From positions 1 through 53,058 of the forward strand of contig JAURQH010000074.1 of NCBI GenBank assembly GCA_030836185.1: a DNA stretch of 53,058 bases, in the 5' to 3' direction. The DNA is from Planctomycetota bacterium. Its GTDB lineage: Bacteria > Planctomycetota > Planctomycetia > Planctomycetales > Planctomycetaceae. Both the position numbers and the translations under genes were made by a program. Below are positions 20,041 to 52,626 of the stretch, piece after piece; the first letter of the stretch is position 1; every line of letters starts with the position of its first letter. The notes under the pieces were generated by a model. The model was not told the origin of the DNA. It worked only from the letters and a program-made list of their open reading frames with translations, and did no database searches.

Positions 20041-23000
20041 ATGCCCGTTGTTCGCATCCTGTTTCTGATTGTGTTGATCGTTTGTCCGATTGGTCTGTTT
20101 GCTGGAGAGATCGAATTCAATCGTGATATACGACCAATCCTGTCTGACAAATGTTTTGCCTGCCACGGACCGGATCCGAGTCATCGGGAAGCCGAACTTC
20201 GTCTGGATGATCGCGAGAGCGCCCTTCTGGAACGGGACGGGCATCGGGCCATTACTCCCGGCAAGCCGGAGTTGAGCGAACTGGTGGCTCGCGTCACCTC
20301 AACTGATGAGTTCAGCGTGATGCCACCGCCCGATCACGGGAAGCCACTCACTCCCGACGAGATCAAAACTCTCAAACAGTGGATTGTCGAGGGAGCCGAG
20401 TATCAACAGCACTGGTCGTTCATTGCATCCACCCGGCCTGAGCTTCCCAACGTGACGAACCAGTCCTGGGTCAAAACACCCATCGACACGTTTGTTCTGC
20501 ATCGACTGGAAGCAGAAGGCGTTCAACCCTCTGCTCCCGCCAATCGTCAGACATTGTTGCGTCGTCTGTCATTCGACTTGACCGGCCTACCTCCGACTCC
20601 CGCACAAGTTGCGGCGTTCACCAATGATCAATCACCCGATGCTTACGAAAAGATGGTTGACGAGTTGCTGGCTTCTCCTCATTACGGAGAACGCTTGGCG
20701 ATCTACTGGCTCGATCTCGTTCGGTATGCAGATACTCTCGGTTATCACGGCGATCAAGTGCGCAGTGTGTCGCCGTATCGCGATTATGTCATTCGGGCAT
20801 TCAACCAGAACAAGCCGTTTGATCAATTCACGATTGAGAACCTGGCAGGTGACTTGTTACCCGAGGCGAGTCTCGAACAAAAAGTGGCTTCGACATACAA
20901 CCGGTTAAATCGTGCATCGGGCGAGGGAGGTGTTCAACCGAAAGAGTATCTTGCCAAGTATTCGGCAGATCGCGTGCGGACGACGGGAGCGGTTTGGTTG
21001 GGATCGACGTTTGGATGTGCGGAGTGTCATGATCATAAGTTTGATCCGTTTACGACCAAAGACTTCTATAGTTTTGCCGCTTTCTTCGCGGATGTGAAAG
21101 AACAAGGAATTGTCAGCGGTGCGAAACATATCGCGCAATTACCGGTGCCGACTCCCGCACAAACCGAAGAGTTAAACGAACTCTCCAAGAAGCTGGCAGC
21201 CGTACTTGCAGAGTATGATCGACACACTCCCGAAAGAGATCAGGCGTTTGCTGCTTGGCAACAGAAACTGGCGAATGCTTCGAATCAATGGATTTCTGTG
21301 ACACCCACGCAAACCGTTTCCACAGGCGGTGCGACGCTCACAGTTCAAGAAGCGGGCAGCGTGCTTGCCAGCGGCAAGAATCCCGGCAAAGACGTTTATG
21401 AAATCGAGATTCCGCTGACACTTAATAAACTGAGTGGATTGCGTCTGGAAATCTTGCCGCACGATTCACTTCCCGCGAAAGGGCCGGGACGCGCAGGCAA
21501 TGGGAATCTGGTTCTTCACAAGGTCGAAGCGACTTTGAATGACAAGCTGATCGAATGGAAAAGTGGAGTCACGACCCACACACAAAATGGTCATTCCGGT
21601 CAGTTTGTCGCCGATGGTAAACCTAACGGCTGGGCAATTTTGCCAGAAACCGGTAAGGCCAATTCATTGTTACTGCAAGCCAAAGAGCCGATGGAACTCG
21701 CTGGTCAGCAAGTCCTCAAACTTCGCATCCATCAAAACTACGGCAGTAGTCATACCATCGGTCACTTCCGATTCTATGTGACCGAGTCTGCCGAGCAAGC
21801 GTCTCCTCAATCATTGGCCAATGATCAATTAGTGGCGATCATCAAAAAACCAGAAACTGAACGGACCGACGCGGAGAAGCAGGATTTATGGAACGAGTTT
21901 CGTAGTCGTACTGTGTTGCTGGCGGAAGTTCGCAAGCAACGCGACACGTTGCAAAATCGGAAGAAAGCGGTTGAGGGAGCGGTTGTCACAACACTTGCCA
22001 CTGAAGCGACTCAGCCCCGCGAAATACGTGTTCTTCCACGAGGCAACTGGATGGACGATTCGGGACAAGTTGTCATGCCTCAAGTTCCTGCATTTTTACC
22101 ACCCGCAGACGTGAACGATGATCGGCGATTAGATCGTCTCGACTTGGCCCGTTGGTTAATGAATGACGAAAACCCTCTCGTTGCACGAACATTCGTGAAC
22201 CGTATGTGGATGCTTTTCTATGGATACGGCATCTCCCGCTCGGTGGATGATTTGGGTTCTCAAGGAAGCTGGCCCACACATCCCGAATTACTCGATTGGC
22301 TTGCGATTGATTTCCGCGAACACAACTGGGATATCAAACGAGTGATCAAGATGATGGTGATGTCGAATACTTATCGGCAATCGTCAAAGCCTTCTTCGGA
22401 GTTGAGAGCTCGTGACCCTTATAACGAGCTGTATGCACGCCAAAGCCGCTGGCGGCTCGAAGCAGAAATGATTCGCGATAACGCCTTGGCTGTCAGTGGT
22501 CTTCTGGTGGATGAGTTGGGAGGAAAAAGTGTGATGCCCTATCAACCGGCCGGTTATTGGTCGCAACTGAACTTCCCCAAAAGGTCGTATCAAGCCGATA
22601 AAGGAAACGCTCAATACCGTCGCGGTGTTTATACTCATTGGCAACGTACGTTCTTGCACCCCAGTTTACTGGCGTTTGATGCTCCGGCTCGCGAAGAATG
22701 TACAGCCCGCCGAGAACGATCTAATACGCCGATACAGGCTCTTGTATTGTTGAATGATCCGACCTACGTCGAAGCGGCTCGCAAGTTTTCCGAGCGAATT
22801 CTGAAAGAAGGAGGCAGCGGCTTTGAATCGCGTCTCGAGTTTGCCTGGCAATTAGCGCTCAGTCGAACTCCGACCGAAGAAGAAATTCGATTGATGAAAG
22901 AAATTTTGGACTCTCATCGAGAGTTCTATTCGCAAGACGCCGCCGCTGCTGGACAACTCTTGCAGTCAGGTATTGCACCTGTTGTCGAGGGAATTAATAA

Positions 23001-23073
23001 GACAGAATTGGCAAGTTGGACGGCCGCCGCGCGGACGATTCTCAACTTGCATGAAGCGATTACCCGTTATTAA
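20041..23073 (+). CDS. PSD1-type planctomycete cytochrome (PSCyt1-DUF1549-DUF1553), set 1
   Basis: A 1010-residue exported protein. The signal peptide ends near LFAG (residue 22). PSCyt1 carries haem motif CFACH (Cys38-His42) and the MPPPDHGKPL Met region. DUF1549 (about 145-345) contains LLRRLSFDLTGLPPTP and a second CxxCH, CAECH (326-330), in CAECHDHKFDP. The middle (about 410-580) is beta-rich and resembles a carbohydrate-binding or lectin-like insert. DUF1553 (about 690-970) includes NPLVARTFVNRMW and ERSNTPIQALVLLNDPTYVE. ATG at 20041 has AAGAGG upstream. It is followed by a DUF1501 gene 66 bases on, the usual planctomycete pairing. Enzymatic role is unestablished. Confidence 0.9.
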   Translation: MPVVRILFLIVLIVCPIGLFAGEIEFNRDIRPILSDKCFACHGPDPSHREAELRLDDRESALLERDGHRAITPGKPELSELVARVTSTDEFSVMPPPDHGKPLTPDEIKTLKQWIVEGAEYQQHWSFIASTRPELPNVTNQSWVKTPIDTFVLHRLEAEGVQPSAPANRQTLLRRLSFDLTGLPPTPAQVAAFTNDQSPDAYEKMVDELLASPHYGERLAIYWLDLVRYADTLGYHGDQVRSVSPYRDYVIRAFNQNKPFDQFTIENLAGDLLPEASLEQKVASTYNRLNRASGEGGVQPKEYLAKYSADRVRTTGAVWLGSTFGCAECHDHKFDPFTTKDFYSFAAFFADVKEQGIVSGAKHIAQLPVPTPAQTEELNELSKKLAAVLAEYDRHTPERDQAFAAWQQKLANASNQWISVTPTQTVSTGGATLTVQEAGSVLASGKNPGKDVYEIEIPLTLNKLSGLRLEILPHDSLPAKGPGRAGNGNLVLHKVEATLNDKLIEWKSGVTTHTQNGHSGQFVADGKPNGWAILPETGKANSLLLQAKEPMELAGQQVLKLRIHQNYGSSHTIGHFRFYVTESAEQASPQSLANDQLVAIIKKPETERTDAEKQDLWNEFRSRTVLLAEVRKQRDTLQNRKKAVEGAVVTTLATEATQPREIRVLPRGNWMDDSGQVVMPQVPAFLPPADVNDDRRLDRLDLARWLMNDENPLVARTFVNRMWMLFYGYGISRSVDDLGSQGSWPTHPELLDWLAIDFREHNWDIKRVIKMMVMSNTYRQSSKPSSELRARDPYNELYARQSRWRLEAEMIRDNALAVSGLLVDELGGKSVMPYQPAGYWSQLNFPKRSYQADKGNAQYRRGVYTHWQRTFLHPSLLAFDAPAREECTARRERSNTPIQALVLLNDPTYVEAARKFSERILKEGGSGFESRLEFAWQLALSRTPTEEEIRLMKEILDSHREFYSQDAAAAGQLLQSGIAPVVEGINKTELASWTAAARTILNLHEAITRY

Positions 23074-23139
23074 GAACTTCGCGATATTAGGCTCTATGCA
23101 GCGCACCAAACATTTTAACTCAGTTACGAGTAAGAGATC

Positions 23140-24579
23140 ATGAATCAAATTCCTCTTGAATTGGCCCGTCGCAGTTTTCTCAAAAACTCCGTCATGGGAT
23201 TCGGCTCAGCGGCATTGATGTCGTTGTTGCAAGATGACATGCAAGCTGCCGAGAAACTGACACCTCAAGCAACTTCGGGTGACTTTGCGGGAGTCCTTCA
23301 GCCACTACACTTTCCGACCAAGGTGAAACGGATCGTCCATCTTTGTATGGCGGGGGGGATGACGCATCTCGAGACGTTTGACCATAAGCCCAAGCTGGCC
23401 GAGATGAATGGCAAACCGATGCCCGAGTCGCTGACCGCAGGTCAACAAATCGCCCAGCTTCAAGGTCGCAAATTGACCTGCTTTGCACCCCAGCATCCCT
23501 TTCAGAAATATGGAGAGAGCGGACAGGAGATCTGTTCGTTGTTTCCGCACTTGGGTTCTATTGCCGATGATTTGTGCATTGTGAAATCGATGCACACTGA
23601 CCAAATCAATCACGACCCGGCACATACCCTCTTTAATACCGGTTCCTCAATCGCGGGGCGACCGAGTATGGGTTCGTGGTTGTTATACGGGTTGGGGCAA
23701 GAGACTCAAAACATGCCCGGCTATGTCGTGCTGACATCGGTCGGACGCGGTGGACAATCTCAACCCATTGCCGCTCGACAGTGGCATAGTGGCTTTTTGC
23801 CGTCTCGTTATCAAGGAGTGCAATTTCATTCGACCGGCGCGCCGGTGTTGTATTTGAATCGACCTGACGGCGTAGGACTCAGTCAACAAAAACAGGTCAT
23901 TGATACGGTCAATCAGTTGAACCAAAACTTCAACGAAGTGGTTGACGACCCTGAAATCAACACACGTATTCGTCAATACGAAATGGCGTTTCGGATGCAG
24001 ACCAGTGTTCCCGAACTGATGGATCTCTCTAGCGAAACCAAAGAGACTTTTGAAAGTTACGGCACAAAAGGAGGCGATGGAACGTATGCCTCGAATTGTC
24101 TGCTCGCCCGCCGATTACTCGAACGAGGTGTTCGCTTTGTGCAGTTGTATCACCGCGGTTGGGATCATCACGGCAACTTAAAAGGCTCGATGGAAACGAC
24201 ATCCAAAGAAGTTGATCAGTCAACGGCCGCATTCATCAAAGACCTCAAGCAACGTGGATTATTTGAAGATACCCTGATTGTTTTTGGTGGTGAGTTCGGA
24301 CGCACGCCAATGGCACAAGGGAGTGGACGCGATCATCACATCAAAGGGTACTCGATGTTTCTCTCGGGAGGCGCTGTGGAAAATGGAATGAGTTACGGCG
24401 GCACCGATGAGTTTGGATACAACGCGGTTGACAATCCGGTCCATGTACGAGATTTTCACGCGACCATGCTGAAACTGTTTGGTATCGATCACAAACGATT
24501 TACCTATAAGTTTCAGGGCCTCGACTTCCGTTTGACGGGTGTCGAAGAAGCCCATGTGGTCAAAGATATTCTATCTTGA
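23140..24579 (+). CDS. Tat-exported DUF1501 protein, set 1
   Basis: A 479-residue protein of the DUF1501 family, distantly related to the sulfatase/alkaline phosphatase fold. A twin-arginine signal, ARRSFLKNSVMGFG, points to folded export, perhaps with a bound cofactor. Family motifs are GGMTHLETFDHKP near residue 70, LARRLLERGVRFVQLYHRGW and GGEFGRTPMAQGSGRDHH (about 380-400). The C-terminus VRDFHATMLKLFGIDH is typical. It directly follows the PSD1 gene and precedes a Tat-targeted isomerase-like protein, forming a three-gene cluster. The reaction is unknown. Confidence 0.9.
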   Translation: MNQIPLELARRSFLKNSVMGFGSAALMSLLQDDMQAAEKLTPQATSGDFAGVLQPLHFPTKVKRIVHLCMAGGMTHLETFDHKPKLAEMNGKPMPESLTAGQQIAQLQGRKLTCFAPQHPFQKYGESGQEICSLFPHLGSIADDLCIVKSMHTDQINHDPAHTLFNTGSSIAGRPSMGSWLLYGLGQETQNMPGYVVLTSVGRGGQSQPIAARQWHSGFLPSRYQGVQFHSTGAPVLYLNRPDGVGLSQQKQVIDTVNQLNQNFNEVVDDPEINTRIRQYEMAFRMQTSVPELMDLSSETKETFESYGTKGGDGTYASNCLLARRLLERGVRFVQLYHRGWDHHGNLKGSMETTSKEVDQSTAAFIKDLKQRGLFEDTLIVFGGEFGRTPMAQGSGRDHHIKGYSMFLSGGAVENGMSYGGTDEFGYNAVDNPVHVRDFHATMLKLFGIDHKRFTYKFQGLDFRLTGVEEAHVVKDILS

Positions 24580-24647
24580 CGATGTTTGATCTGTTACGCT
24601 GGATTTGTGTTTGAAACGATCACTCTTTTGAGAATGAACTGACAACA

Positions 24648-25562
24648 ATGAACGACTTTCTGATGCCCGACCGTCGCCTGTTTTTAAAAAGCACCGCTGC
24701 TGCCATGCTCGCCAATCACACACTCTCTGCCTTTGGGGCAGACAAGCCCGGTTATCCCTTGAAAGACCGTCTCTACAAAACACTTAAGATTGGCATGGTC
24801 GGCGTGAAAGGCTCGCTGACCGATAAATTCAAAGCTGCGAAAGAAGCCGGCTTTGCTGCCATCGAAATGAACGCGCCGGGAATGGATGTTGCCGAAACGA
24901 AAAAAGCGATCCTCGAATCGGGACTCCCCGTCGATGGAACGGTGAACTCGACTCACTGGGGCACGCGCCATTCGGACCCCGATCCAGAAGTCCGAGCGAA
25001 AGCACTCGAAAGTTTGAAGGGGGCGATCCGCGATACTCATGCTGTCGGCGGGCACACAGTCTTATTAGTGGTGGGTCACGGTAAAGATGGAACGGAACAA
25101 GAAGTGTGGGATCGTTCTGTCGAGAACATTGCCAAGGCTGTTCCTGTCGCCGCCGAGTATGGTGTGCCGATTGCATTTGAGAATGTCTGGAACCAGTTCC
25201 TGTACGACCACGATGGAGCCGCCGATCAGACTGCCGAGAAATGGAAGAAGTATGTCGATGAATTCAACTCTCCTTTTGTCGGCATGCAGTTCGATATCGG
25301 CAATCATTGGAAATATGGCTCGATGGGAGACTGGATTCGCACTCTCGGCAAACGAATCATCAAGCTCGATGTGAAAGGCTTCTCACGCAAAGAGGGATCC
25401 TTCAAAAAAATCGGGGAAGGCGATCTCGATTTTGACGATGTTCGTAAAGCGCTCACCCAGATCAACTTTTACGGCTACTGTGCGGCAGAAGTGGGCGGCG
25501 GAGACGCAGCACGTCTGAAAGAGGTTTCCGACAATATGGATCGCGTATTCAATCTGGTTTGA
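24648..25562 (+). CDS. Tat-exported sugar phosphate isomerase/epimerase-like TIM barrel
   Basis: A 304-residue AP-endonuclease-2/xylose-isomerase-like barrel. The N-terminus has a twin-arginine signal, DRRLFLKSTAAAMLANH, so it should act in the periplasm. Metal-ligand candidates are Glu in PIAFENVWNQF, Asp in MQFDIGNHW, the His after it, and Glu in CAAEVGGGD. These positions fit the family. Spacing of 68 bases after the DUF1501 gene suggests one transcript with it. A sugar or inositol derivative is the likely substrate type; identity unknown. The ribosome site is weak. Its stop is one base from the convergent glycosyltransferase gene's stop. Confidence 0.85.
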   Translation: MNDFLMPDRRLFLKSTAAAMLANHTLSAFGADKPGYPLKDRLYKTLKIGMVGVKGSLTDKFKAAKEAGFAAIEMNAPGMDVAETKKAILESGLPVDGTVNSTHWGTRHSDPDPEVRAKALESLKGAIRDTHAVGGHTVLLVVGHGKDGTEQEVWDRSVENIAKAVPVAAEYGVPIAFENVWNQFLYDHDGAADQTAEKWKKYVDEFNSPFVGMQFDIGNHWKYGSMGDWIRTLGKRIIKLDVKGFSRKEGSFKKIGEGDLDFDDVRKALTQINFYGYCAAEVGGGDAARLKEVSDNMDRVFNLV

Positions 25563-25563
25563 T

Positions 25564-28957: not shown

Positions 28958-29332
28958 GATTCCGAATCCTTTCAAGAAGCCTGTTGCGGGTATTTCTACG
29001 AGGAAGCTAGTGAAATTGCTTCCTGTTTTCCGGGTGGTTTTCATCCCATAGATGAGGTCAAGACTTGCTTCAAACGGGATTCTCTTCGCAACCCCATCCT
29101 TGAAATGTTGGGAGTGATAACAATTTCCGGTTCGGGGGGAAAGATCGATTCTTGAGGAAAATTGCTGAAAATCACCTTAAACTGATCAAAAATAAACTGT
29201 TTGGAAACCAGAAGGCTAACCGATGGAGAGAGTATGAGGTGTCTAAAGGGGCATCTTCCCACCTGAGTAAAGTAGAATATTGTGAAAGATCCTGAAGAAT
29301 TTGTCTCGACTGACAGGGCAGGAGATCCTTTG

Positions 29333-29551: not shown

Positions 29552-29631
29552 TTGATCCAACTTTATACAATATCGATTGTCACAGCCTGGATTTGACAGT
29601 CGTCAACCTGACACAAACCAAGGAGAGAAGT

Positions 29632-30927
29632 ATGAGCCTGTTTCCGTCACGTCGCGATTTCATGCATGTCGGTTTTATGGGTGGTCTGGGTTTGACACTC
29701 ACCGACTTCCTGAGAATGAAGTCGAATGCCGATATCAAGAACTACGAAACTAAAGAGGGTACCGCGAAGTCGGTCATCTTCATCTATCTACCCGGTGGTA
29801 TGGCTCACCAGGAGTCTTTCGATCCGAAACCGTTTGCTCCGATTGAGTATCGCGGTCCGATGAAACACATCGAGACTAAGTTGCCGGGTGTCTTTTTTAA
29901 TGAGAACATGAAAGAGACTGCCAAGATCGCCGACAAAATTACGGTCTGCCGTTCGATGACACACGGTGAAGCCGCTCACGAACGTGGCACACACAACATG
30001 TTCACCGGATATCGTCCGAGTCCTGCGCTGTCATTCCCGAGTATGGGGTCTGTGATCTCGCACGAGTTTGGTCCTCGTACGGCAATTCCTCCTTACGTGG
30101 CAATTCCTAATCAGCCGAACGAGTTCGCCGGTACCGGTTATCTGAGTTCTTCGTTTGCACCATTTTCGGTGGGTTCCGATCCTGCATCGAGCAACTTCAC
30201 CGTCCGCGACCTGACGTTGCCAGGTGGTGTTGATGATAATCGATTCACTCGTCGTCGAAATATTCTCGATGCCGTCAACGACCATTTTGTCAGTAAGGAA
30301 AAAGCCGACTCGCTGAACGCCGTTGATACGTTCTACAAACGTGCCTATGGGATGGTGAGTTCTCAAGAAGCTCGCGAAGCTTTTGATATCAATAAGGAAG
30401 ACGCCAAGTTGCGAGATGCTTACGGTCGTAATCAGGCCGGTGCCCGTATGTTGCTGGCCCGTCGATTGGTTGAAGGGGGAGCCCGCTTCATCACCATGAC
30501 TTATGGTGGCTGGGATATGCATAATAACATCGAGCAGTCGATGGATGGCCAAATGCCATCGTTCGACAAAGCCTTTGCGACATTGATCTCAGACCTCGAT
30601 CAACGCGGTTTGCTGGATACCACAATGGTATGTGTTGCCTCGGAATTCGGTCGAACGCCCAAAATCAACGCCACTGCTGGTCGCGATCACTGGCCAAAAG
30701 TCTTCAGCGTCGTGCTTGCCGGTGGTGGATTCAAGCGAGGTAGCATCTATGGTTCCTCAAATGCCACTGCCAGTGAGCCGGAAGTTGATGCCTTGAATGT
30801 TCAGGATTGGGCCACCACGATCTACCACAACCTTGGCATTGTTGCCGACAAAGAATTAATGGCACCCGGCGATCGCCCAATTGAGATCGTCGATGGTGGT
30901 AAGGTGCGACAAGAACTGTTGGCTTAA
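29632..30927 (+). CDS. DUF1501 protein, set 2
   Basis: A 431-residue DUF1501 protein. SRRDFMHVGFMGGLGLTLTD near the N-terminus is a twin-arginine-type signal with a modest hydrophobic core. Motifs are IYLPGGMAHQESFDPKP, LARRLVEGGARFITMTYGGW and VASEFGRTPKINATAGRDHW, as in the other two copies here. AAGGAG lies seven bases before the ATG at 29632; a TTG-started extension from 29593 is not needed. It heads a probable four-gene operon with a PPC protein, a PSD1-type protein and a cytochrome-WD40 protein. The reaction is unknown. Confidence 0.9.
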   Translation: MSLFPSRRDFMHVGFMGGLGLTLTDFLRMKSNADIKNYETKEGTAKSVIFIYLPGGMAHQESFDPKPFAPIEYRGPMKHIETKLPGVFFNENMKETAKIADKITVCRSMTHGEAAHERGTHNMFTGYRPSPALSFPSMGSVISHEFGPRTAIPPYVAIPNQPNEFAGTGYLSSSFAPFSVGSDPASSNFTVRDLTLPGGVDDNRFTRRRNILDAVNDHFVSKEKADSLNAVDTFYKRAYGMVSSQEAREAFDINKEDAKLRDAYGRNQAGARMLLARRLVEGGARFITMTYGGWDMHNNIEQSMDGQMPSFDKAFATLISDLDQRGLLDTTMVCVASEFGRTPKINATAGRDHWPKVFSVVLAGGGFKRGSIYGSSNATASEPEVDALNVQDWATTIYHNLGIVADKELMAPGDRPIEIVDGGKVRQELLA

Positions 30928-30996: not shown

Positions 30997-31025
30997 CGAA
31001 GCAGCCGATGTGATGGTTTGCTTCG
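30997..31025. repeat. Hairpin between DUF1501 and PPC genes
   Basis: CGAAGCA (30997-31003) pairs with TGCTTCG (31019-31025) around a 15-base loop. It stands 26 bases before the start of the PPC gene and is not followed by a T-run. It might modulate processing or stability of the operon transcript. Confidence 0.3.
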
Positions 31026-31051
31026 GCCCGTCCGTTCAAATGGAGTTTGCT

Positions 31052-33496: not shown

Positions 33497-33576
33497 GAAG
33501 CGATCTGTTTTAGCTACTTTCCTGTAAGTTTAAAATAACGACAACATCCTATTTATGGTGTTTTTTGAGGTCACTC

Positions 33577-38987: not shown

Positions 38988-38998
38988 TTTGATCGAGT

Positions 38999-42723: not shown

Positions 42724-42779
42724 TAAAATTGATTATGTATAATATTGCGGGCAGGTTTCCCGTTTTGAAGGTCGAGCTT

Positions 42780-43514
42780 ATGAACATCAATCACGGTACG
42801 CGACGGCAGTCTGTTGTCGGGCTCATTCTCACACGACTCTTCAATGGGGAGTATGCTCCCGGAGCGCGTCTACGAGTCGAACACCTGGCAGAGCAATGTG
42901 ACGTGAGTGTGACGCCTATTCGTGAAGCTCTTGTTGAATTGGCGGGTTTTGGTGTCATCAAATTACAACCCAACCGTGGTGCGGAAGTGAGCCCCTTCGG
43001 TCCCAAGCAGCTCTGGGAAATTTGTCACCTCCGACGAATTCTCGAATCTGAAGCGGTGCGCGGGTGTGTGGGACATTTCACGCCGAGCGAACTTGAACAG
43101 ATGGAAGCCGATTTTGCACGACTTTCCACCGCAGATCGTGACGAAGACTGGCTGGAAGAAACAAAACTGCTCGACAACCAACTGCACTCTTTGATTTCTG
43201 AGCGTTGCGGCAATAAGCGTTTAAGCTACGAGATCAATCGATATGCGGTTCTGTATCGAACACTTCGCGACGCGCGACACAGTATGCGAACTGCACGTTC
43301 CAATTATTCCGAGATGGATGAGAACCTGGAACATCTTGCCATTGTTCGTGGGATCATCAAACAAGATCGCGAAGCGGCGGCTGAGGCGATGGGTGATCAC
43401 GTCAATCAGGCAGGCAACGCATTAGTGCAAGATTTGTTTGGCAAGCAGGCAATTGCCGACGCCGATCTGGATCCTTACGTCGCCGGGCAAGTGACGCCGA
43501 CCGAAGCCCTTTAA
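42780..43514 (+). CDS. GntR-family regulator with FCD domain
   Basis: A 244-residue FadR-type regulator. The winged helix covers about residues 8-70 (LAEQCDVSVTPIREALVELA, then FGVIKLQPNRGAEV). The helical FCD domain follows, with LRRILESEAVRGC, an Asp in LLDNQLHSLIS, and EHLAIVRGIIKQ and GDHVNQ near the end, giving the D-H-H type residues that often hold a metal in the ligand pocket. The ATG at 42780 is preferred to a TTG at 42729. It is only 30 bases upstream of the PSD1 gene, so it probably autoregulates the sulfatase operon it heads. The effector is unknown. Confidence 0.88.
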   Translation: MNINHGTRRQSVVGLILTRLFNGEYAPGARLRVEHLAEQCDVSVTPIREALVELAGFGVIKLQPNRGAEVSPFGPKQLWEICHLRRILESEAVRGCVGHFTPSELEQMEADFARLSTADRDEDWLEETKLLDNQLHSLISERCGNKRLSYEINRYAVLYRTLRDARHSMRTARSNYSEMDENLEHLAIVRGIIKQDREAAAEAMGDHVNQAGNALVQDLFGKQAIADADLDPYVAGQVTPTEAL

Positions 43515-43544: not shown

Positions 43545-46500
43545 ATGAAAATCACCGTCTCGTTCTGTGTCCTCATGATTGCGGCTTGTCTTGTGGCAAG
43601 TTCAAACGCGGATGATGCTCCCAACTCTTCAGAACAGGTTCATTTCGAGCAGCAAATCGCTCCTCTGTTCGAAGAACATTGCATTCGCTGTCACTCACCC
43701 AACAATCGAAAAGGGGAGTTGTCGCTGGAGACCATCGCGGATTTGAAAGAGAAGAGTTACGTCACTCCCGGCGACCCTGACGGTAGCTATCTGATCGATG
43801 TGGTGACACCCCAGAGTGGTGAACCCGCCGAAATGCCCAAAGAAGGCGATGCTCTTTCCGCTGAAGAAGTCGGGTTGCTCAAACTCTGGATCAAACAAGG
43901 AGCCACTTGGCCTGAAAATGTGTTGGTTCAGGAGAAATCAAAAGCCGATAAATCGTGGTGGTCGCTACAACCGCTGGCTGAAGTGATTGTTCCCAAGCCT
44001 GCCGGGCTTCCCGATTCTTGGCAAGCAAACCCGATTGATGCGTTTGTTTTCTCTCAGTTGGCCGAACAGGGGCTCACTCCCAATCAGCCTGCGGATCGAC
44101 GCACTTTGATTCGCCGTCTCACATACGATCTGACTGGACTTCCACCAACGCCGCTTGAGATAGAAGCTTTTGAGAAGAATTCCGACCCTCAAGCGTATGA
44201 ACAATTGGTGGATCGGTTATTGGCCTCTCCTCGTTACGGCGAACGCTGGGGACGACACTGGCTGGATGTTGTACGGTTTGGCGAGAGCAACGGCTTTGAA
44301 CGGAATGTGATCATCAATGATCTTTGGCCGTTTCGCGACTACGTGATTGAGTCGATCAATCAGAACAAGCCGATGGATCAATTCATACGAGAGCATCTGG
44401 CGGGAGACATCTTTGGTAAGGGGAAACCGGATCAGGAAATCGGTGCAGCGTTTCTTGTTGCCGGTCCGTATGACAATGTCGGAAATCAGGATCCCGTCGC
44501 GGCGGCTCAAATTCGTGCCAATACGATTGATGAAATGATTCGGACATCGGGTGAATCATTCCTCGGATTGACGCTGGGATGTGCACGCTGTCATGACCAT
44601 AAATTCGACCCCATTTTGCAGACAGATTATTATCGTTGGTATGCGACATTCGCCGGAGTCCGTCATGGCTCTCGAGTCTGGGCGACTCCCGAAGAACAAC
44701 GGCGTCACGTAGAACAGATGAAACCCTTGAATGCGCGTAAAGCCGAGTTGACTCAGCAGCAACGCGAATTAAAAAAAGCCATCGCACAGCGCTTGTGGGA
44801 GTCGAACGAGGAATGGTCGAGACCCGCGGTTGATGCTCGGAAGAATGAAGAGACGTTTCCGACCATTTCCACAAAGTATGTGCGATTTTCGATTTCATTA
44901 ACGAATCAAAGTCAGCCATGCATTGACGAACTGGAAATTTACCGTCCAGACGATTCATCGAACCTTGCACTTGCTTCCGCTGGAGGTCAGGCCACGGCTT
45001 CGTCTTTGTTACCCGGTTATCCCATGCATCAGATCGAACATCTGAACGATGGTCAATCTGGCAACAGCCATAGTTGGATTAGTAAAGACGCGACCGGTTG
45101 GGCGCAAATTGAACTCCCTCGACAAATGGAAATCAATCGTGTTGTCTGGGGACGCGACCGAGAGGGGAAGTATCGCGACCGATTACCGCTCGAATACCGC
45201 ATTGAGGTTTCGGTTGATGGTCAGTCGTGGCGCGAAGTCGTGAATGGTGGTGACCGTAAGCCTGTCGATCAAAGTCATTTGACACGGCGAGGGCTCAGCG
45301 GACACACATTATCCATTGAAAAAAACTGGACACGTCCTCCGGTGGACCGTCTCGGTACGACTGAGAAGTTTAATCCTGTTCAGGCGAAGTTTGTCCGACT
45401 CGTTTGCGAAGCACAAGATGGTAACCCGGCGTCATCATCGGGGTTTCGCATTGACGAGTTTGAGGTTTGGTCCGCAGGCTCCGAGCCTCAAAACGTCGCA
45501 CTTGCCAACAACGGCGGTAAGGCGACTGGAAAAGCTCGCGAGATTAAAGATTTTCCCAATGCCTACGGCCCGCATCTTGCCATTGACGGTAAGGGGGGCG
45601 AACGATTTCTGGCGGCAGGAAACGACCTGACGATTAAACTCTCCAAGCCGACAAGCATCAATCGCGTGACATTCTCGAGTGCTCGTGGCGAAGCCACACC
45701 GTCACAACGAAAGTTTGTCTTTGTCGCCGACTATCGCATTGAAGTTTCGTTGGATGGAAAGTCGTGGCGTGAGGTGGCTCATGGTCGTGATCGCAAACCT
45801 GCCAGCGAAGCACATCGTAAGCATCGCATTGCACAGGCTACGCAACCGACATCAGAGGAAGCGGCCAAACTCAAAAAGATCAATCAAGAACTGGCACAAG
45901 TGTCACGAGAGATCAAAGCGGTGCCTTCTTTGCAAACTGCTTGGCTTGGTTCTCGACAGTCTGCACCGGGACCGTTTTATACCTTTCTAGGTGGCAGCCC
46001 ACAGAAAAAAGGGGCGGAGGTCGTTGCTGCGAGTTTATCAACACTCGATCAAGCCGCGCCAACTTACCGTCTCACTCAGGGTGATTCTGAAGCTGATCGG
46101 CGGCGTAATTTGGCCGAGTGGATCACCAGCCCGAAGAACCCTCTGACAGCGCGCGTACTCGTCAATCGAGTCTGGCAAAATCATTTCGGAACGGGCATTG
46201 TCAGTACACCTAATGATTTTGGGTATATGGGGAGTAAGCCGACACATCCGTTACTGCTCGACTGGTTAGCTGGGCAACTACACGAACACAATTGGCGTCT
46301 GAAGCCGCTACACAAAATGATTGTCCTGTCGCAATCCTATCGGCAGTCCAGTCTCTTCCGTGAAGACGTCGCTCGCATTGACGGTAACGCCCGATACTTG
46401 TGGCGTTTCCCTCCGCGACGCCTTTCCGCCGAAGAAATTCGGGATACGATTCTGGCCGTCTCAGGTCGGTTGAACGAAAAAATGGGTGGTCCCGGATTTC

Positions 46501-46931
46501 GGTTGTATGATTACCAACAAGACAACGTGGCGACTTATGTACCGCTCGATCAACACGGTCCCGAGACTTACCGGCGAGCCGTGTATCACCAGAATGCTCG
46601 CGCATCGGTGGTCGATCTGATGACCGAATTCGATCAACCGGATTGTGCGTATTCGACTCCCGAGCGAGCCGAAACGACGACGCCGTTGCAGGCACTCACG
46701 ATGCTCAATCATCAATTTACTCTCGATATGGCAGAAGCATTGGCCGAACGACTTCGCTCTGAGGGTGGCGACAAGCCCGAGCAGCAGATCGAGCATGCAT
46801 TCGCTCTTTGTTACGGCCGCCAACCAACGAAAGCAGAAATTAGCGACTGTCTGGCGTTGATCGAAGAGCATTCCTTGACCGCATTTTGTCGAGTGCTCCT
46901 CAATACTAGCGAACTGATTTATGTGCAGTGA
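43545..46931 (+). CDS. PSD1-type cytochrome with two discoidin-like segments, set 3
   Basis: An 1128-residue exported protein, with signal peptide to about residue 22. PSCyt1 has CIRCH (Cys46-His50). DUF1549 has LIRRLTYDLTGLPPTPLEIE and CARCHDHKFDP (Cys346-His350). Two F5/8-type discoidin-like segments follow at about 466-575 and 646-755, each ending in a matching YRIEVS-DG-SWREV unit and a DRKP tail. They are probably carbohydrate-binding. DUF1553 occupies about 850-1110 (NPLTARVLVNRVWQNHFGTG, TTTPLQALTMLNHQFT). GAGGT lies seven bases before the ATG. Two sulfatases downstream suggest a sulfated glycan context. Confidence 0.9.
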   Translation: MKITVSFCVLMIAACLVASSNADDAPNSSEQVHFEQQIAPLFEEHCIRCHSPNNRKGELSLETIADLKEKSYVTPGDPDGSYLIDVVTPQSGEPAEMPKEGDALSAEEVGLLKLWIKQGATWPENVLVQEKSKADKSWWSLQPLAEVIVPKPAGLPDSWQANPIDAFVFSQLAEQGLTPNQPADRRTLIRRLTYDLTGLPPTPLEIEAFEKNSDPQAYEQLVDRLLASPRYGERWGRHWLDVVRFGESNGFERNVIINDLWPFRDYVIESINQNKPMDQFIREHLAGDIFGKGKPDQEIGAAFLVAGPYDNVGNQDPVAAAQIRANTIDEMIRTSGESFLGLTLGCARCHDHKFDPILQTDYYRWYATFAGVRHGSRVWATPEEQRRHVEQMKPLNARKAELTQQQRELKKAIAQRLWESNEEWSRPAVDARKNEETFPTISTKYVRFSISLTNQSQPCIDELEIYRPDDSSNLALASAGGQATASSLLPGYPMHQIEHLNDGQSGNSHSWISKDATGWAQIELPRQMEINRVVWGRDREGKYRDRLPLEYRIEVSVDGQSWREVVNGGDRKPVDQSHLTRRGLSGHTLSIEKNWTRPPVDRLGTTEKFNPVQAKFVRLVCEAQDGNPASSSGFRIDEFEVWSAGSEPQNVALANNGGKATGKAREIKDFPNAYGPHLAIDGKGGERFLAAGNDLTIKLSKPTSINRVTFSSARGEATPSQRKFVFVADYRIEVSLDGKSWREVAHGRDRKPASEAHRKHRIAQATQPTSEEAAKLKKINQELAQVSREIKAVPSLQTAWLGSRQSAPGPFYTFLGGSPQKKGAEVVAASLSTLDQAAPTYRLTQGDSEADRRRNLAEWITSPKNPLTARVLVNRVWQNHFGTGIVSTPNDFGYMGSKPTHPLLLDWLAGQLHEHNWRLKPLHKMIVLSQSYRQSSLFREDVARIDGNARYLWRFPPRRLSAEEIRDTILAVSGRLNEKMGGPGFRLYDYQQDNVATYVPLDQHGPETYRRAVYHQNARASVVDLMTEFDQPDCAYSTPERAETTTPLQALTMLNHQFTLDMAEALAERLRSEGGDKPEQQIEHAFALCYGRQPTKAEISDCLALIEEHSLTAFCRVLLNTSELIYVQ

Positions 46932-46980
46932 GCGCAAGAGAAGTCATGCTCCAAAAATATTCACCCCACTGGAATCACTA

Positions 46981-49650
46981 ATGTTAGATCGACTTCATTC
47001 CAAGTTGTTTGTTGTAGCTCTCGTGATCCTGAGTGCGTTTCAAGTTCATGCCGCCGAAAAGCCAAACGTCGTCTTCATTCTGGCAGATGACTTGGGTTGG
47101 TCGGAACTTGGCAGCTACGGTAATCATTTCAATGAGACGCCACATCTCGATCAACTTGCCAACGAGGGTGTACGATTTACGCAGGCTTATGCGTCTGCTC
47201 CTGTTTGTTCGCCTTATCGAGCGTCATTATTGACGGGGCAATACCCCGCCCGCATTGGCATTCTGGATTACCTCCGTCCCAACTCATCCAATGCGTTACC
47301 GGTCGATCAATTGACTCTGCCCGAAATGTTGCAACAGCAGGGCTATACCACTGGAATGGTCGGCAAATGGCACCTGACAGGATATGAATATCATGGAGCC
47401 GAACATGAAATCCGCCCAGTCGATCATGGCTTCAAGTGGGACATTGCCCGAGAAGTCAAAGGAGTGGGCAACGGTGCTAATTTCTGGCCGTATGAATTCC
47501 GGGATCAACAGATCCGCTGGCTCGATCTTCCCCAAAACTCTCTCGGCGACAATGAGTTTTTAGTGGACCGTATGAATTTGGAAGCCGTCGATTTTATTAA
47601 ACGGAATCAGGAACAACCATTTTTTCTTTACCTCAGTCATTATGCTCCGCATTCGATTCTGAATGGCAAGCCGAAACTGGTCGAAAAGTATCGCCAGAAG
47701 CAACAGCCCGGCAAGAGTACTAGGGATCGTTGCTATTTGTGCGAGGACCAAGGATATGAGGGGGACACACTCAATCACTGGGCAGGAGACCACAACCCTC
47801 ATCTCGCCGCAATGTTAGAGAGTGTCGATGACGGTGTGGGAATGATCCTCAAAACGCTCGATAACCTTGGGCTGGCAGAGAACACCATTGTCATCTTTAC
47901 CAGTGACAATGGTGGAGAAACCAATGTGACCTCGAACGCTCCTTTGCGTGGAGGGAAAAGTGAACTCTATGAAGGGGGAGTTCGTGTTCCGTTGATTGTC
48001 AGGTGGCCTAGGCAAATACCAAAAAAAACGGTTTGCGATGGTCTTACCATGAATGTGGATTTCTATCCAACAATTCTTGATGTGCTTGGAGTTAACGATG
48101 ATTCTCATCAGAAGTTGGACGGTGTCTCAGTCTTATCGTTATGGAAATCTCCGAAGTTATCTTTGGAACGCGATCCTTTGTATTGGCATTACCCCCTTGA
48201 TCAACCTCATTTTCTGGGTGGTCGTTCGGCAGGCGCCATTCGTGACAAAAACTGGAAGCTCATCGAGTTTTTTGACACGGAAGAGACTGAGCTTTATGCA
48301 ATCGCTGAAGACTCTTCCGAGCAGGAAGATCTGTCAGCCGCAAAGCCGAAGGTTGTTCACGCACTGAAATCAAGGCTGCAAACGTGGCGAACGTCTATCA
48401 ATGCAAGAATGCCTTCAGCGCCGATGTTAGCTCGGCCTCAGAGCCTTTATTTTTCCGATCATTTTTCTGCAGGGCAGGAGAGTGGCCGTTGGCATTTTAC
48501 GAAAGACTGGGCGATTGAAAAAGGAGTTTTGCGACGTGTTAAAACGGGTAGCGAAGACACACGCATGTTTCTGAAAAATGCCCAGTTTCGTAATGCAATC
48601 ATTCGATTTGATTTTCAGTTTCAAGAGTCTAATAATCTGCGTTTGGTCACAGGGTCAAACGGTCATTACAATGCAGTAGTTCATCTTCATCGGGATCACT
48701 TTTTCATTCAGACCGCGCAAGACAAGTCAGGGCCGTACTTCTCTCACCGTCATGGAGAGTGTGCCTTCGACTTCGATCCTAATCGCTGGTACACATTAAC
48801 GGTTGAATTTTTGGAAGATGAGCTTGTGGCCCACATCGACGCCGATCATGTTGTTTACGCCAAGCATCCGATTTTGGATCAAGAGAGGACTTATCTGGCA
48901 TTTCAGGTGGATGACTCTGATGCGGCGTTTGACAACTTGCAAATCCTCAACGCCAGCAAGCATACAGATTATGGGGTGGGCATAAAGCATGTGTTGTCTG
49001 TTGCTAGTAAATATCCCGTACAGATAGCACTCGAAGAACGGCTCAAGATCGAAAAAGTGAATGCTCGTGATCGCCTCTATCAGTCTGATGCACAGTATCG
49101 ACAACTGTTTCAGCAAGTAGAAGAACTTGATGCCAAGCAGAAGAAAGAATATCCAGACGCTTTTCGATCTCACAAAGAGTTCACGAAGAAAATTCAAGAG
49201 AGGCGCAAAGACCTCCATGAGAACGATCCTCGATACAAAGAACTTTTGTTCGCAACTTATCGGGCCAAACGCGCCCTCGATGAGTTTTTGATTGAACAAG
49301 AACTTTTTCTCGAAGAGTTACCCAAAAGTCGCAAGCCGAAAGAGCTCGAGCGCATTCGACAACAGTATCTCGATCACCCCGGCTATCAGGCACTTGTTCA
49401 GAAACAGGCCGTTGCTCAGCAAGTCCTTGAAAAAACGTACCCTCAAATTTTTGTCAGTGATGAAGAGATCAAACAGATTCGGCAGGAACGCCGTGACGAA
49501 GTCGAACAGGAAGAAAAGTTTCGCAAACTCAAAGAAGAGCGTGCAAACGCCTATCGCGCCGAACAAGATTATCTGATGACAAAAGACAAGATTCTTTTCA
49601 AAGTTCAACAGCAATTTGACAAGATGAAACGTGATACAACATCTGAATGA
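46981..49650 (+). CDS. Secreted sulfatase with lectin-like domain and repeated C-terminal helices
   Basis: An 889-residue formylglycine sulfatase with a signal peptide ending near VHAAE (residue 25). Metal site FILADDLGW (Asp36, Asp37), formylglycine motif CSPYR (Cys76) and FTSDNGGETN are intact, so it should be active. Residues about 488-660 resemble a DUF1080/concanavalin-like beta domain (LYFSDHFSAGQESGRWHF). Residues 700-889 are charged helices with an imperfect repeat (702-745 and 798-841, both with YP..F..S and QERR). Such a tail is unusual for a sulfatase. ATG at 46981 gives the signal peptide. It needs a formylglycine-generating enzyme encoded elsewhere. Confidence 0.88.
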   Translation: MLDRLHSKLFVVALVILSAFQVHAAEKPNVVFILADDLGWSELGSYGNHFNETPHLDQLANEGVRFTQAYASAPVCSPYRASLLTGQYPARIGILDYLRPNSSNALPVDQLTLPEMLQQQGYTTGMVGKWHLTGYEYHGAEHEIRPVDHGFKWDIAREVKGVGNGANFWPYEFRDQQIRWLDLPQNSLGDNEFLVDRMNLEAVDFIKRNQEQPFFLYLSHYAPHSILNGKPKLVEKYRQKQQPGKSTRDRCYLCEDQGYEGDTLNHWAGDHNPHLAAMLESVDDGVGMILKTLDNLGLAENTIVIFTSDNGGETNVTSNAPLRGGKSELYEGGVRVPLIVRWPRQIPKKTVCDGLTMNVDFYPTILDVLGVNDDSHQKLDGVSVLSLWKSPKLSLERDPLYWHYPLDQPHFLGGRSAGAIRDKNWKLIEFFDTEETELYAIAEDSSEQEDLSAAKPKVVHALKSRLQTWRTSINARMPSAPMLARPQSLYFSDHFSAGQESGRWHFTKDWAIEKGVLRRVKTGSEDTRMFLKNAQFRNAIIRFDFQFQESNNLRLVTGSNGHYNAVVHLHRDHFFIQTAQDKSGPYFSHRHGECAFDFDPNRWYTLTVEFLEDELVAHIDADHVVYAKHPILDQERTYLAFQVDDSDAAFDNLQILNASKHTDYGVGIKHVLSVASKYPVQIALEERLKIEKVNARDRLYQSDAQYRQLFQQVEELDAKQKKEYPDAFRSHKEFTKKIQERRKDLHENDPRYKELLFATYRAKRALDEFLIEQELFLEELPKSRKPKELERIRQQYLDHPGYQALVQKQAVAQQVLEKTYPQIFVSDEEIKQIRQERRDEVEQEEKFRKLKEERANAYRAEQDYLMTKDKILFKVQQQFDKMKRDTTSE

Positions 49651-49659
49651 GATTTACTC

Positions 49660-51090
49660 ATGAATATCCACGACATGACCCGACGCAGGTTTCTCAACGA
49701 CATCACTACCGGCTTGGCCGGAGTGGGGTTGGTTGACTTGATCTCCCAAAGTCTTTGGGCCGACGGTTCCACTCAGCAATCAGTGCGTGGCACGACCCAT
49801 CATGCCCCCAAAGCGAAACGGGTCTTGCAGATCTTCTGTCCAGGAGCCGCCTCGCATATGGATTTGTGGGAGCACAAGCCGTCGCTCGAAAAGTATCATG
49901 GCAAGCCATTGCCGGGTGAGGAGAACTTCGTCTCGTTTCAAGGTAAGAACGGCAACCTGATGCAAAGTCCGTGGAAGTTCTCTCCCGCAGGCGAGAGCGG
50001 CAAGATGTTTTCCAGCATGCTGCCTCAGATGTCGAAGCATGCCGACGACATCGCGTTCATTCATTCGATGCACAGTGAATTAAACACGCATGGGCCAGGT
50101 TGTGTCTTCATGAATACCGGTCATCCGACCGAAGGGTTCCCGGCTGCGGGGGCGTGGGCCAGTTATGCGTTGGGCTCGGCGAATGAAAATCTGCCAACAT
50201 ATGTGGCCATTTCAGATATCCGTGGCGAGCCACCGAATGGGAAAGCGAATTGGACAAACGGTTTTTTGCCCGCCAAACATCAAGCCATCATGATGAGCGA
50301 TCATCGGCCCATCCGAAATATTTCACCTCCAGCATCGATCAAGTCCGACGAAGAAGCCGCCACGCGCGAGTTATTGCGTAAGTTGAATCAGCAATATGCC
50401 ACCGCTAATGCGAAAGAATCGGACTTGCAAGCGCGCATTGCAGCGTACGAACTCTCGGGGCGTATGCAGGTATCGGCTCCCCAGGTGTCTGATCTCTCGC
50501 GGGAGTCAGAGCAAGCTCACAAAGCCTATGGGACGAATGACGAAAACAAACTGAAGGCAGCCTACGCGCGAAACTGTTTACTGGCGCGACGGCTCCTTGA
50601 ACGAGACGTCCGCTATGTGAATTTATATTGTGCGTCTCGCGCTTCGGGAGTCGACGGTTTGCTCAATTGGGATGCTCATAAGACATTGAAGTCTGACTAC
50701 GAACGGCATTGCCCTATCTTCGATCAACCGACTGCCGCGTTACTCACGGATCTGAAGCAATCGGGGCTTCTCGAAGACACGTTGGTCTTATGGACGACCG
50801 AGTTTGGACGCATGCCCACGCATCAAGCGGGGACGGCTGGGCGTGACCATAACCCGGATGGCTTCACCTGTTGGATGATGGGAGCCGGCGTGAAGGGGGG
50901 AATCAGTTACGGTGCGACGGATGAATTCGGGCGACGTGCGGAAGTCAATCCGACCACTGTCTGGGATTTCTATGCCACGGTTTTACATCTTTTAGGATTC
51001 GATCACGAGCGGCTCACTTGGTATCATAATGGTCTCGACCGCCGTTTGACCGATGTCCACGGCTCCATGATCAAAAACATTCTTTCCTGA
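49660..51090 (+). CDS. Tat-exported DUF1501 protein, set 3
   Basis: A 476-residue DUF1501 protein. MTRRRFLNDITTGLAGVG is a clear twin-arginine signal. Motifs are FCPGAASHMDLWEHKP, LARRLLERDVRYVNLYCASR and WTTEFGRMPTHQAGTAGRDH, and the C-terminus VWDFYATVLHLLGFDH. SHMDLWEHKP differs from the more usual T/S-FDPKP of the family, as does the Cys-rich NLYCASR. It starts nine bases after the sulfatase stop, so coupling is likely. It lies between two sulfatases in the GntR-headed operon. Reaction unknown. Confidence 0.9.
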   Translation: MNIHDMTRRRFLNDITTGLAGVGLVDLISQSLWADGSTQQSVRGTTHHAPKAKRVLQIFCPGAASHMDLWEHKPSLEKYHGKPLPGEENFVSFQGKNGNLMQSPWKFSPAGESGKMFSSMLPQMSKHADDIAFIHSMHSELNTHGPGCVFMNTGHPTEGFPAAGAWASYALGSANENLPTYVAISDIRGEPPNGKANWTNGFLPAKHQAIMMSDHRPIRNISPPASIKSDEEAATRELLRKLNQQYATANAKESDLQARIAAYELSGRMQVSAPQVSDLSRESEQAHKAYGTNDENKLKAAYARNCLLARRLLERDVRYVNLYCASRASGVDGLLNWDAHKTLKSDYERHCPIFDQPTAALLTDLKQSGLLEDTLVLWTTEFGRMPTHQAGTAGRDHNPDGFTCWMMGAGVKGGISYGATDEFGRRAEVNPTTVWDFYATVLHLLGFDHERLTWYHNGLDRRLTDVHGSMIKNILS

Positions 51091-51108
51091 ATATACATTG
51101 AGGTTGTG

Positions 51109-52626
51109 ATGATTCGTTTTCTGTTTTCTTGCCTTGCTCTTCTTTTTGTTTCATCCAGCTCTCTCTCGGCAGCCGAGAAACCGAACATTGTTGTGTTTCT
51201 CGTTGACGATATGGGCGTCATGGATACTTCGGTCGCTTTCCTCACCGACGATAACGGCACACCCAAGCGTTACCCGCTCAACGATTACTACCGGACCCCA
51301 AGTATGGAACGTCTGGCGAATCAGGGCGTCCGCTTCAATAATTTCTACGCGATGTCTGTCTGCTCGCCGACACGCAATTCGATTATGACCGGCCAAAACG
51401 CCGCCCGGCATCATGCGACTAATTGGATCAATCCGTGGCAAAACAACAAAGGCCCCTACGGCCCACCCAATTGGGACTGGGAAGGCTTGGATGCCACGGA
51501 CATCACTCTCCCCGGAACCCTCCGCAAGAACGGTTATAAAACGATTCATGTCGGCAAAGCCCACTTCGGGCCAGAAGAACATGCTGGCTCTGAACCACTC
51601 AATCTAGGGTTTGATGTCAACGTCGCGGGCCGATCAGTCGGTGCGCCGGGAAGTTATTATGGTGAGAAAGATTACGGCAACCCGAAACACAAAAACAAAG
51701 TCCCCGGACTCAAAAAGTATCACGGCACAGAAACCTTTCTGACCGAAGCACTCACCATTGAAGCGAAACAACATCTCACAGACACCGTGAAAGCCGATCA
51801 ACCGTTTTATCTGTATATGTCACATTACGCCGTGCATGCACCGTTCAATTCTGATCCCCGCTTTGCCGATCATTACAAGGATTCTGGCAAACCGAAAAAT
51901 GCCCAGGCGTTCGCGACCTTGATTGAAGGTATGGATAAATCTCTCGGTGACATCCTCGATCACCTGGATAAATTAGGTGTTGCGGAAAACACGCTCGTCA
52001 TTTTCCTGGGAGACAATGGTTCCGATGCACCGCTCGGCCACCAACATGAAGTTGCCTGTGCGGCTCCGTTGCGAGGTAAAAAAGGCGCTCATTACGAAGG
52101 GGGCATGCGAGTGCCGTTCATTGCCGCCTGGGCGCAACCGAATAGTAAGAACGAAAATCAGCAGAAACTTCCCATCCCGGCCAACGTGATTCAATCGCAA
52201 CAGGCTGCCGTGATGGATTTGTTCCCGACCATTTTGAATCTGACCGATGTCAAAATTCCCAACGGTCACAAAGTCGATGGAAGACGGCTCGATACACTCC
52301 TCACCGGAAAGTCCGATTCATCACGCTCTGAAGAGTTCCTGATGAATTATCCACACGCTCCACATCGTAGTGATTACTTCACCGTCTATCGGAATGGTGA
52401 CTGGAAGGTCATTTATCACTTCTATCCCTCGAAACAATCGGATGGATCACACTATCAACTCTACAATCTGAAAGACGATCCGTTTGAGTCGACCAATCTG
52501 GCCGAAGAAAAACCGACCGTGCTGCGTAAATTGATGCAAGGATTGGTCGCCTCGATGAAAGCCCATGATGGCCAGTATCCGGTCAGTAAAGACGACGGAA
52601 TGCCCCTGCAACCAATTGTGCCCTAA
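51109..52626 (+). CDS. Secreted sulfatase (arylsulfatase A type)
   Basis: A 505-residue formylglycine sulfatase. The signal peptide ends near SLSAAE (residue 22). The metal site VVFLVDDMG has Asp33 and Asp34. The formylglycine motif VCSPTRNSIMTG has Cys85 in canonical CxPxR form, and IFLGDNGSDAP supplies the late Asp-Asn pair. Length is typical, without extra domains. The ATG at 51109 has GAGG just upstream; a GTG three bases earlier is also in frame. It follows DUF1501 by 18 bases and precedes the IS-cut gene by 44. The substrate is probably a sulfated carbohydrate, by context. Confidence 0.92.
   Translation: MIRFLFSCLALLFVSSSSLSAAEKPNIVVFLVDDMGVMDTSVAFLTDDNGTPKRYPLNDYYRTPSMERLANQGVRFNNFYAMSVCSPTRNSIMTGQNAARHHATNWINPWQNNKGPYGPPNWDWEGLDATDITLPGTLRKNGYKTIHVGKAHFGPEEHAGSEPLNLGFDVNVAGRSVGAPGSYYGEKDYGNPKHKNKVPGLKKYHGTETFLTEALTIEAKQHLTDTVKADQPFYLYMSHYAVHAPFNSDPRFADHYKDSGKPKNAQAFATLIEGMDKSLGDILDHLDKLGVAENTLVIFLGDNGSDAPLGHQHEVACAAPLRGKKGAHYEGGMRVPFIAAWAQPNSKNENQQKLPIPANVIQSQQAAVMDLFPTILNLTDVKIPNGHKVDGRRLDTLLTGKSDSSRSEEFLMNYPHAPHRSDYFTVYRNGDWKVIYHFYPSKQSDGSHYQLYNLKDDPFESTNLAEEKPTVLRKLMQGLVASMKAHDGQYPVSKDDGMPLQPIVP

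Follow-up and report, generated by a model that had tools for sequence, protein, structure and literature searches.

Planctomycete proteins that combine PSCyt and PSD domains have been described by He et al (2017; PMC5615132), together with the unknown families encoded next to them, a neighbourhood with sulfatases and a possible role in carbohydrate use. In R. baltica, PSD1 and PSC2 are present in 41 copies each, and for one of them a stress-induced sigma factor has been proposed as the regulator (PMC2754498). A WD40-DUF1501 neighbourhood in Planctomycetes (PMC5587647) and a conserved, exported DUF1501 module of compartmentalised bacteria of the Planctomycetes-Verrucomicrobia-Chlamydiae (PVC) group (Kamneva, 2012, cited in PMC4452313 and PMC4960237) are also on record. 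Here, we analysed a window of 53,058 bases, the complete contig C53 of a 5.16-Mb planctomycete draft genome, in which an initial annotation had recognised three gene sets, each with a PSD1 protein (a c-type cytochrome fused to DUF1549 and DUF1553) and a DUF1501 protein. Pfam scans found every element that it had named in sets 1 to 3, neighbours included. Its claim of an undescribed system did not survive, since the DUF1501 module, the PSCyt/PSD architectures and the sulfatase and WD40-DUF1501 neighbourhoods are all in print; in the open-access literature, outside which most subscription journals fall, we found no functional study of DUF1501, DUF1553, DUF1549, PSCyt2 or the planctomycete CX4CH domain. 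Judged by gene order, domain content and trees, sets 1 and 3 are two copies of the known expandable pair, and set 2 is one copy of a highly conserved operon that has a sister of this pair as its core.

We counted 54 PSD1 genes in the genome (58 rows before pieces were merged) and 78 DUF1501 genes (84 before one two-piece gene was merged and five fragments of 35-85 residues were dropped); the protein sets A1 and A2 hold 43 of the 54 and 70 of the 78, respectively. DUF1549 and DUF1553 score above the Pfam cut-offs in all three sets and in 43/43 members of A1. PSD1 genes were divided by profile score, without a preset definition, into classes A (>700, 35 genes), B (540-700, 10 genes) and C (300-540, 9 genes), and the PSD1 tree does not demonstrate, against an outgroup, that class A is a separate clade. 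A same-strand DUF1501 gene lies within 6 kb of 49 of the 54 PSD1 genes, and in 31 of the 35 class A genes it follows directly. The trees of the two partners are congruent over 48 pairs (Mantel r = 0.93, matched by 0/2000 shuffles), as are those of class A taken separately (33 pairs, r = 0.79, 0/2000 shuffles). Nearest neighbours agree between the partner trees in only 20/48 pairs, and the congruence is therefore one of large-scale structure. By gene order and tree comparison, PSD1 and DUF1501 are thus encoded and inherited as a pair, far above what chance would give, and the common core seen by the initial annotation stands. The class C PSD1 proteins are shorter and mostly still paired with DUF1501. 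The clustering of three sets within 33 kb was rejected as evidence in itself: when 54 genes are placed at random, PSD1 starts form a triple spanning no more than 23.5 kb 1.29 times on average, and at least once in 71% of 2000 trials.

All PSD1 proteins carry a CXXCH motif inside DUF1549 (54/54), extended to CXXCHxH in 52, and the residues C333, C336, H337 and H339 (set 1 PSD1 numbering) are invariant across 43 aligned proteins. A further motif lies near the N-terminus, CXXCH in 35/35 class A proteins and CX4CH, of the form CNxxxCH, in 10/10 class B proteins; we predict that PSD1 proteins, which have an ordinary leader for export, are c-type cytochromes with more than one haem. For sets 1 and 3 the N-terminal cytochrome is PSCyt1 by Pfam. 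The set 2 protein gives no Pfam match to PSCyt1 and bears only the CX4CH domain, which hhalign aligns to PSCyt1 with a probability of 97.5 (E = 5.8e-12; 0.3% for a control with the DUF1549 haem region); on this profile comparison, the class B domain is a diverged PSCyt1 homologue. All class A proteins (35/35) have an MP motif after the N-terminal CXXCH, with an invariant Met column, whereas in class B a His is invariant in 90/90 aligned domains, in the same loop and two profile columns from the PSCyt1 Met. From these conserved columns we infer that the haem ligands switched from His/Met to bis-His between the classes, and the CX4CH domain of class B is probably a bis-His cytochrome. Among 80 set 2 orthologues, 64 display a VPHxGG-type pattern and 80/80 have CX4CHG, a motif that played no part in finding them; the DUF1549 haem motif is present in 80/80 as well, a count that is circular because the orthologues were sought with two patterns, one of them taken from that motif.

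Set 2 (class B) is made of four genes which, like those of sets 1 and 3 described below, are on the + strand. The DUF1501 gene (29593..30927, likely ATG 29632; twin-arginine leader) is followed by the gene of an exported PPC-domain protein (31010..33496), by PSD1 (33565..36024, likely ATG 33577), two genes downstream of DUF1501, and by a gene encoding a PSCyt1 cytochrome (CATCH, Met in MPP) joined to a WD40 propeller and a long helical tail (36261..38987), all assigned by Pfam. The PSD1 protein consists of Big_2-like repeats, the CX4CH cytochrome domain, DUF1549 and DUF1553, with no large insert. Its haem motifs are CNNGSCH (residues 141-147; 33985..34005) and, in DUF1549, CAQCH (35038..35052), and profile alignment places the invariant His201, the candidate distal haem ligand, at 34165..34167.

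The order DUF1501-PPC-PSD1-PSCyt1/WD40 is complete in 30/36 loci of relatives (one per genome), and in the remaining six the contig stops before the DUF1501 gene; three of 39 relatives (G011, G029 and G031), whose best matches have at most 46% identity, were left out. Of 244 genomes drawn from the phylum, 59 match the set 2 PSD1 with an E value no worse than 1e-215; the same class accounts for 39 of these, and 20 lie outside it. Among the genomes listed, 40 belong to the same class and all but one of them have set 2; a further 165 genomes without a match are outside that list, and their kinship to the class is not shown. We compared 80 named loci, from both Planctomycetota and Verrucomicrobiota, and found all four genes at 56; these loci are the best 80 of 584 relatives and hence lean to close ones. 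Where there is room on both sides (60 loci), the four-gene set is complete in 52; three of the incomplete loci are L270, L281 and L287, and the others are taken up below. CXXCH is present in 69/69 matches to the PSCyt1-WD40 gene. Within our genome, PPC homologues lie beside 7/10 class B PSD1 genes, with the PPC similarity of an eighth locus located inside the PSCyt1 protein, and PSCyt1-WD40 homologues lie beside 4/10. At one locus (L076, G000 C104:205888-211119), a PSCyt1/WD40-like part and a class B PSD1 are fused in a single protein of 1743 residues, which carries the motifs CHGCH, CNQGTCH and CNKCH. Overall, set 2 belongs to a deep clade, class B, and forms a four-gene operon that is nearly universal and mostly present as a single copy. 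The accessories of the initial annotation were supposed to be swapped between sets; this fits the labile neighbours of class A but not the set 2 companions, since these belong to the four-gene operon as constant parts. Open frames of 1425-1726 residues, perhaps fusions like that at L076, hold the match to the set 2 PSD1 in several genomes from outside the class. A protein of 574 residues (window 27320-29044), without a Pfam match, is found beside set 2 in only the two same-genus relatives out of all loci compared.

Set 1 (class A) opens with a PSD1 gene of PSCyt1-PSCyt2(DUF1549)-PSD1(DUF1553) architecture, whose frame begins with TTG at 20020 (20020-23073) and has its first ATG at 20041 (20041..23073). 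The protein, modelled by AlphaFold with a predicted local distance difference test (pLDDT) of 89.7, displays a Sec-type leader, PSCyt1, DUF1549, a beta-sandwich insert and DUF1553, and bears the haem motifs CFACH at residue 45 (20152..20166) and CAECH(xH) at residue 333 (21016..21030). Downstream lie the DUF1501 gene (23140..24579; twin-arginine leader) and a neighbour with an AP_endonuc_2 domain, a xylose-isomerase-like TIM barrel (24648..25562). DUF1501 adjoins PSD1 in 11/14 set 1 loci of relatives; these span 42-89% identity, and therefore some may be paralogues. The isomerase was found in 2/14, both of the same genus.

In set 3 (class A), a GntR/FCD regulator (42729..43514) precedes a PSD1 gene (43545..46931; motifs CIRCH and CARCH) in which two F5/8 type C stretches separate DUF1549 from DUF1553 (PSCyt1-DUF1549-F5/8-PSD1). 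Then come a sulfatase (46921..49650; formylglycine motif CSPYR), the DUF1501 gene (49660..51090; twin-arginine leader), two genes downstream of PSD1, and a second sulfatase (51106..52626; CSPTR). The formylglycine motifs of both sulfatases are intact. The first sulfatase has a long, charged, helical tail, and the 3-keto-disaccharide-hydrolase domain fused to it is a weak match. PSD1 stands beside DUF1501 in 9/10 set 3 loci of relatives, the tenth having a partial DUF1501 at the end of a contig, at a distance of 5.4 kb. The regulator is found next to the locus in G028 as well as in the two relatives of the same genus. The second sulfatase is found in both same-genus relatives, G001 and G002, and the first in G002, G001 having none between PSD1 and DUF1501 and thus one in all; outside the genus, the sulfatase profile matched in 0/8 stretches around set 3 PSD1 relatives. 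A comparison of cluster contents across planctomycetes had been proposed as a check with the initial annotation; in the loci of relatives compared here, set 2 is kept, and the set 1 isomerase and the set 3 sulfatases were found within the genus only.

The two classes differ in what separates DUF1549 from DUF1553. Measured from the DUF1549 haem motif to the conserved Asn-x-x-Trp of DUF1553, this span is 105-528 residues in class A (median 378; 31/35 measured), 95-140 in class B (9/10 measured) and 95-100 in the set 2 orthologues (78/80 measured, by a second count that covered 21/35 of class A). Pfam identifies F5/8, Laminin_G_3, Golvesin_C or PA14 domains in the inserts of a minority of the 43 proteins scanned. 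Foldseek and VIA-align matches of the set 1 PSD1 model are confined to the beta-sandwich insert (residues 420-597), which resembles carbohydrate-binding modules (CBMs) and other jelly rolls with Z up to 8.4; the top row of the fold search is human BIRC6. On these matches, the variable insert of class A looks like a binding module, a lectin- or CBM-like beta-sandwich.

The DUF1501 leaders contain an invariant RR (77/77) and fit RRx[FLAM] in 70/77 cases, which is in keeping with twin-arginine translocation (Tat) export, as noted elsewhere for DUF1501 (PMC5122149). The structure model of the set 1 protein (pLDDT 88) matches NPP, PafA and sulfatases with Z of 17-20 and Foldseek E values down to 6.7e-8, in agreement with the sulfatase-like ancestry proposed at the outset. 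H158, D342, H344, R397 and H399 are invariant in 77/77 DUF1501 proteins, and suggest a metal site unlike that of sulfatases.

We then considered the genes around the pairs. Sulfatases (110 genes, from 117 rows after merging five split genes and dropping two sub-threshold rows within DUF1501 genes), PF06439 genes (29, from 33, pieces merged and one fragment dropped) and PF01261 isomerases (24, from 27, rows below cut-off dropped) were submitted to nine proximity tests, with uncorrected p values. Sulfatases number 16 within 3 kb of pairs (10.8 expected, p = 0.073), 22/110 within 5 kb (14.2 expected, p = 0.023) and 30 within 10 kb (21.7 expected, p = 0.034). PF06439 genes number 8/29 within 5 kb, where 3.7 would be expected (p = 0.027; a single cluster on C89 contributes three of the eight), and 2/29 within 3 kb (p = 0.79); PF01261 isomerases are not enriched within 5 kb of pairs (2/24, 3.1 expected, p = 0.83). 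A 3-keto-glycoside route, brought to mind by the 3-keto-disaccharide-hydrolase domain of set 3 and the TIM-barrel isomerase of set 1, was dropped on account of this absence of PF01261 enrichment and the weak PF06439 signal. Among 47 class A operon neighbours (set A4, out of 49; two phosphoribosyltransferases were scanned separately), sulfatases are the sole recurrent enzyme family in the table (seven, at four loci), the others being mostly singletons, housekeeping genes among them. Three of these four loci fall in the five-member PSD1 subclade of set 3, a grouping made post hoc. Elsewhere in the window (11359-15606), a GntR regulator, a dihydrodipicolinate synthase-type lyase, a proline racemase family enzyme and a flavin adenine dinucleotide oxidoreductase stand together and resemble a hydroxyproline degradation cluster.

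The reading that we favour, tentatively and just short of an even chance, functional scheme included, is that the three sets fall into two branches of a single family, already known in planctomycetes, of envelope modules with two genes each. The DUF1549/DUF1553 half, which has a haem of its own, would be the redox-active centre in either branch, sending electrons by way of the N-terminal cytochrome in the direction of the respiratory chain; DUF1501 would be a metal-dependent hydrolase, its substrate being either this same target or an ester uncovered by the redox step. In branch A, a different insert would give each copy a different glycan target. In branch B, the WD40-cytochrome would be the fixed electron partner, so that a series of three haem sites results; this branch would have a housekeeping role in the envelope rather than one in the use of a single food polymer. 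A further claim, which we take seriously while leaning against it, makes set 2 a PVC-wide housekeeping electron-transfer unit, in which the WD40-borne His/Met cytochrome, the CX4CH bis-His cytochrome and the DUF1549 haem would form a fixed relay, with the phosphatase-fold partner at its side, and makes the dozens of class A pairs its relatives, into which a standard PSCyt1 and exchangeable inserts for glycan binding would have been fitted.

Several observations count against the two-branch reading. The mirror-tree signal is weak within two classes: r is 0.36 over the seven pairs of class B (133/2000 shuffles) and 0.45 over the eight of class C (30/2000 shuffles). No partner lies near 5/54 PSD1 and ~30/78 DUF1501 genes, and in the scan of 21 neighbours of at least 150 residues around these ~30 unpaired DUF1501 genes no family matched more than one in the table. 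DUF1501 is missing from 3/14 set 1 loci of relatives, and 8/9 class C proteins are without the N-terminal cytochrome and have the DUF1549 haem motif only. Five set 2 loci with room on both sides (L298, L301, L306, L307 and L313), recorded as Verrucomicrobia, are without the WD40 gene, and L307 also without the other companions. The match of the set 1 insert is weak, Z below 8 reflecting perhaps a mere common arrangement on the scale of the tool. The formylglycine motif C/S-x-P-x-R is absent from the DUF1501 consensus, with the nucleophile region unaligned, and in an alignment to the sulfatases of this genome their conserved Asp-Asn is replaced by Glu-Phe; DUF1501 may for these reasons not be a catalyst. 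Finally, haem binding and its ligation, the redox and hydrolase roles and a PSD1-DUF1501 contact enter the scheme as predictions.

The initial annotation considered each set as a substrate-specialised polymer-degradation system, in which PSD1 oxidises and DUF1501 and the accessories complete the breakdown. The lectin- or CBM-type inserts of class A and the sulfatases recurring among its operon neighbours, with three of the five members of the set 3 PSD1 subclade (picked post hoc) having operonic ones, speak for it, and He et al (2017; PMC5615132) infer carbohydrate use from gene context. Against this, the proximity enrichment of sulfatases is weak and that of PF01261 nil, the isomerase and the sulfatases are not retained outside the genus, and no glycoside hydrolase, lyase or SusC/D-like gene was found among the 20 proteins scanned between 20 and 53 kb. 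Nor do these 20 proteins resemble a polysaccharide utilisation locus, with no glycoside hydrolases or lyases together with transport genes, and sulfatases in set 3 only. With set 2 near-universal and its companions fixed, we regard this explanation as unlikely for the three sets as a whole; substrate-specialised oxidation is possible for class A and unlikely for set 2.

Alternatively, set 2, and perhaps all sets, could be electron-transport or envelope-organisation machinery of PVC bacteria, of which the class A copies would be expansions. The DUF1501 module of compartmentalised bacteria is said to be likely membrane-targeted and linked to electron transport. Set 2 may be this module, reported as highly conserved in compartmentalised PVC species (Kamneva, 2012, cited in PMC4960237). 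The presence of set 2 in nearly all same-class genomes listed and also in Verrucomicrobiota, and three predicted haem sites across two adjacent genes, are consistent with such machinery; on the other hand, only 20 genomes outside the class matched in the phylum draw, and we consider this explanation possible while inclining slightly away from it. Much less probable is a structural or adhesive role in the envelope, with cytochrome motifs serving folding or the sensing of haem or peroxide, and DUF1501 as a dead phosphatase-fold scaffold. Such a role would suit the WD40, PPC, Big_2, F5/8 and long helical domains, all typically used for binding, and the active-site motifs of DUF1501, which are unlike those of sulfatases. 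However, the invariant D, H, R and E residues of DUF1501 cluster as in metal sites, and haem motifs and candidate axial ligands have been conserved despite great divergence.

Of the planctomycete protein families that still lack an explanation, PSD1 and DUF1501 are two of the largest, and the distinction between a fixed operon (set 2) and an expandable pair (sets 1 and 3) shows where to look first; it also calls for caution before counting neighbouring sulfatases and isomerases as machine parts. Among known systems, the closest are the PSCyt/PSD families (PF07635, PF07583 and PF07587) of He et al (2017; PMC5615132), whose domain order, combinations with Big_2, WD40 and F5/8, and neighbours match those found here; the CX4CH/His domain, the insert split between classes A and B and the near-universal four-gene order do not appear in that paper's section on these families. 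Compared with solved structures, only the PSCyt1 stretch of these proteins matches, to FoxE (E = 3.7e-14) and the hydrazine synthase alpha subunit (E = 1.2e-5), with no sequence match of DUF1549/DUF1553 at E < 0.1. DUF1501 shares the fold of the alkaline phosphatase superfamily (VIA-align Z = 19.7, root-mean-square deviation 3.1, 242 residues aligned to 5gz5) and differs from sulfatases by the missing formylglycine motif and a different metal-ligand motif. The DUF1800-DUF1501 operons located by bacterial chitin synthases (PMC5122149) likewise combine a Tat-exported DUF1501 with a conserved partner, which is DUF1800 in those operons and PSD1 here.

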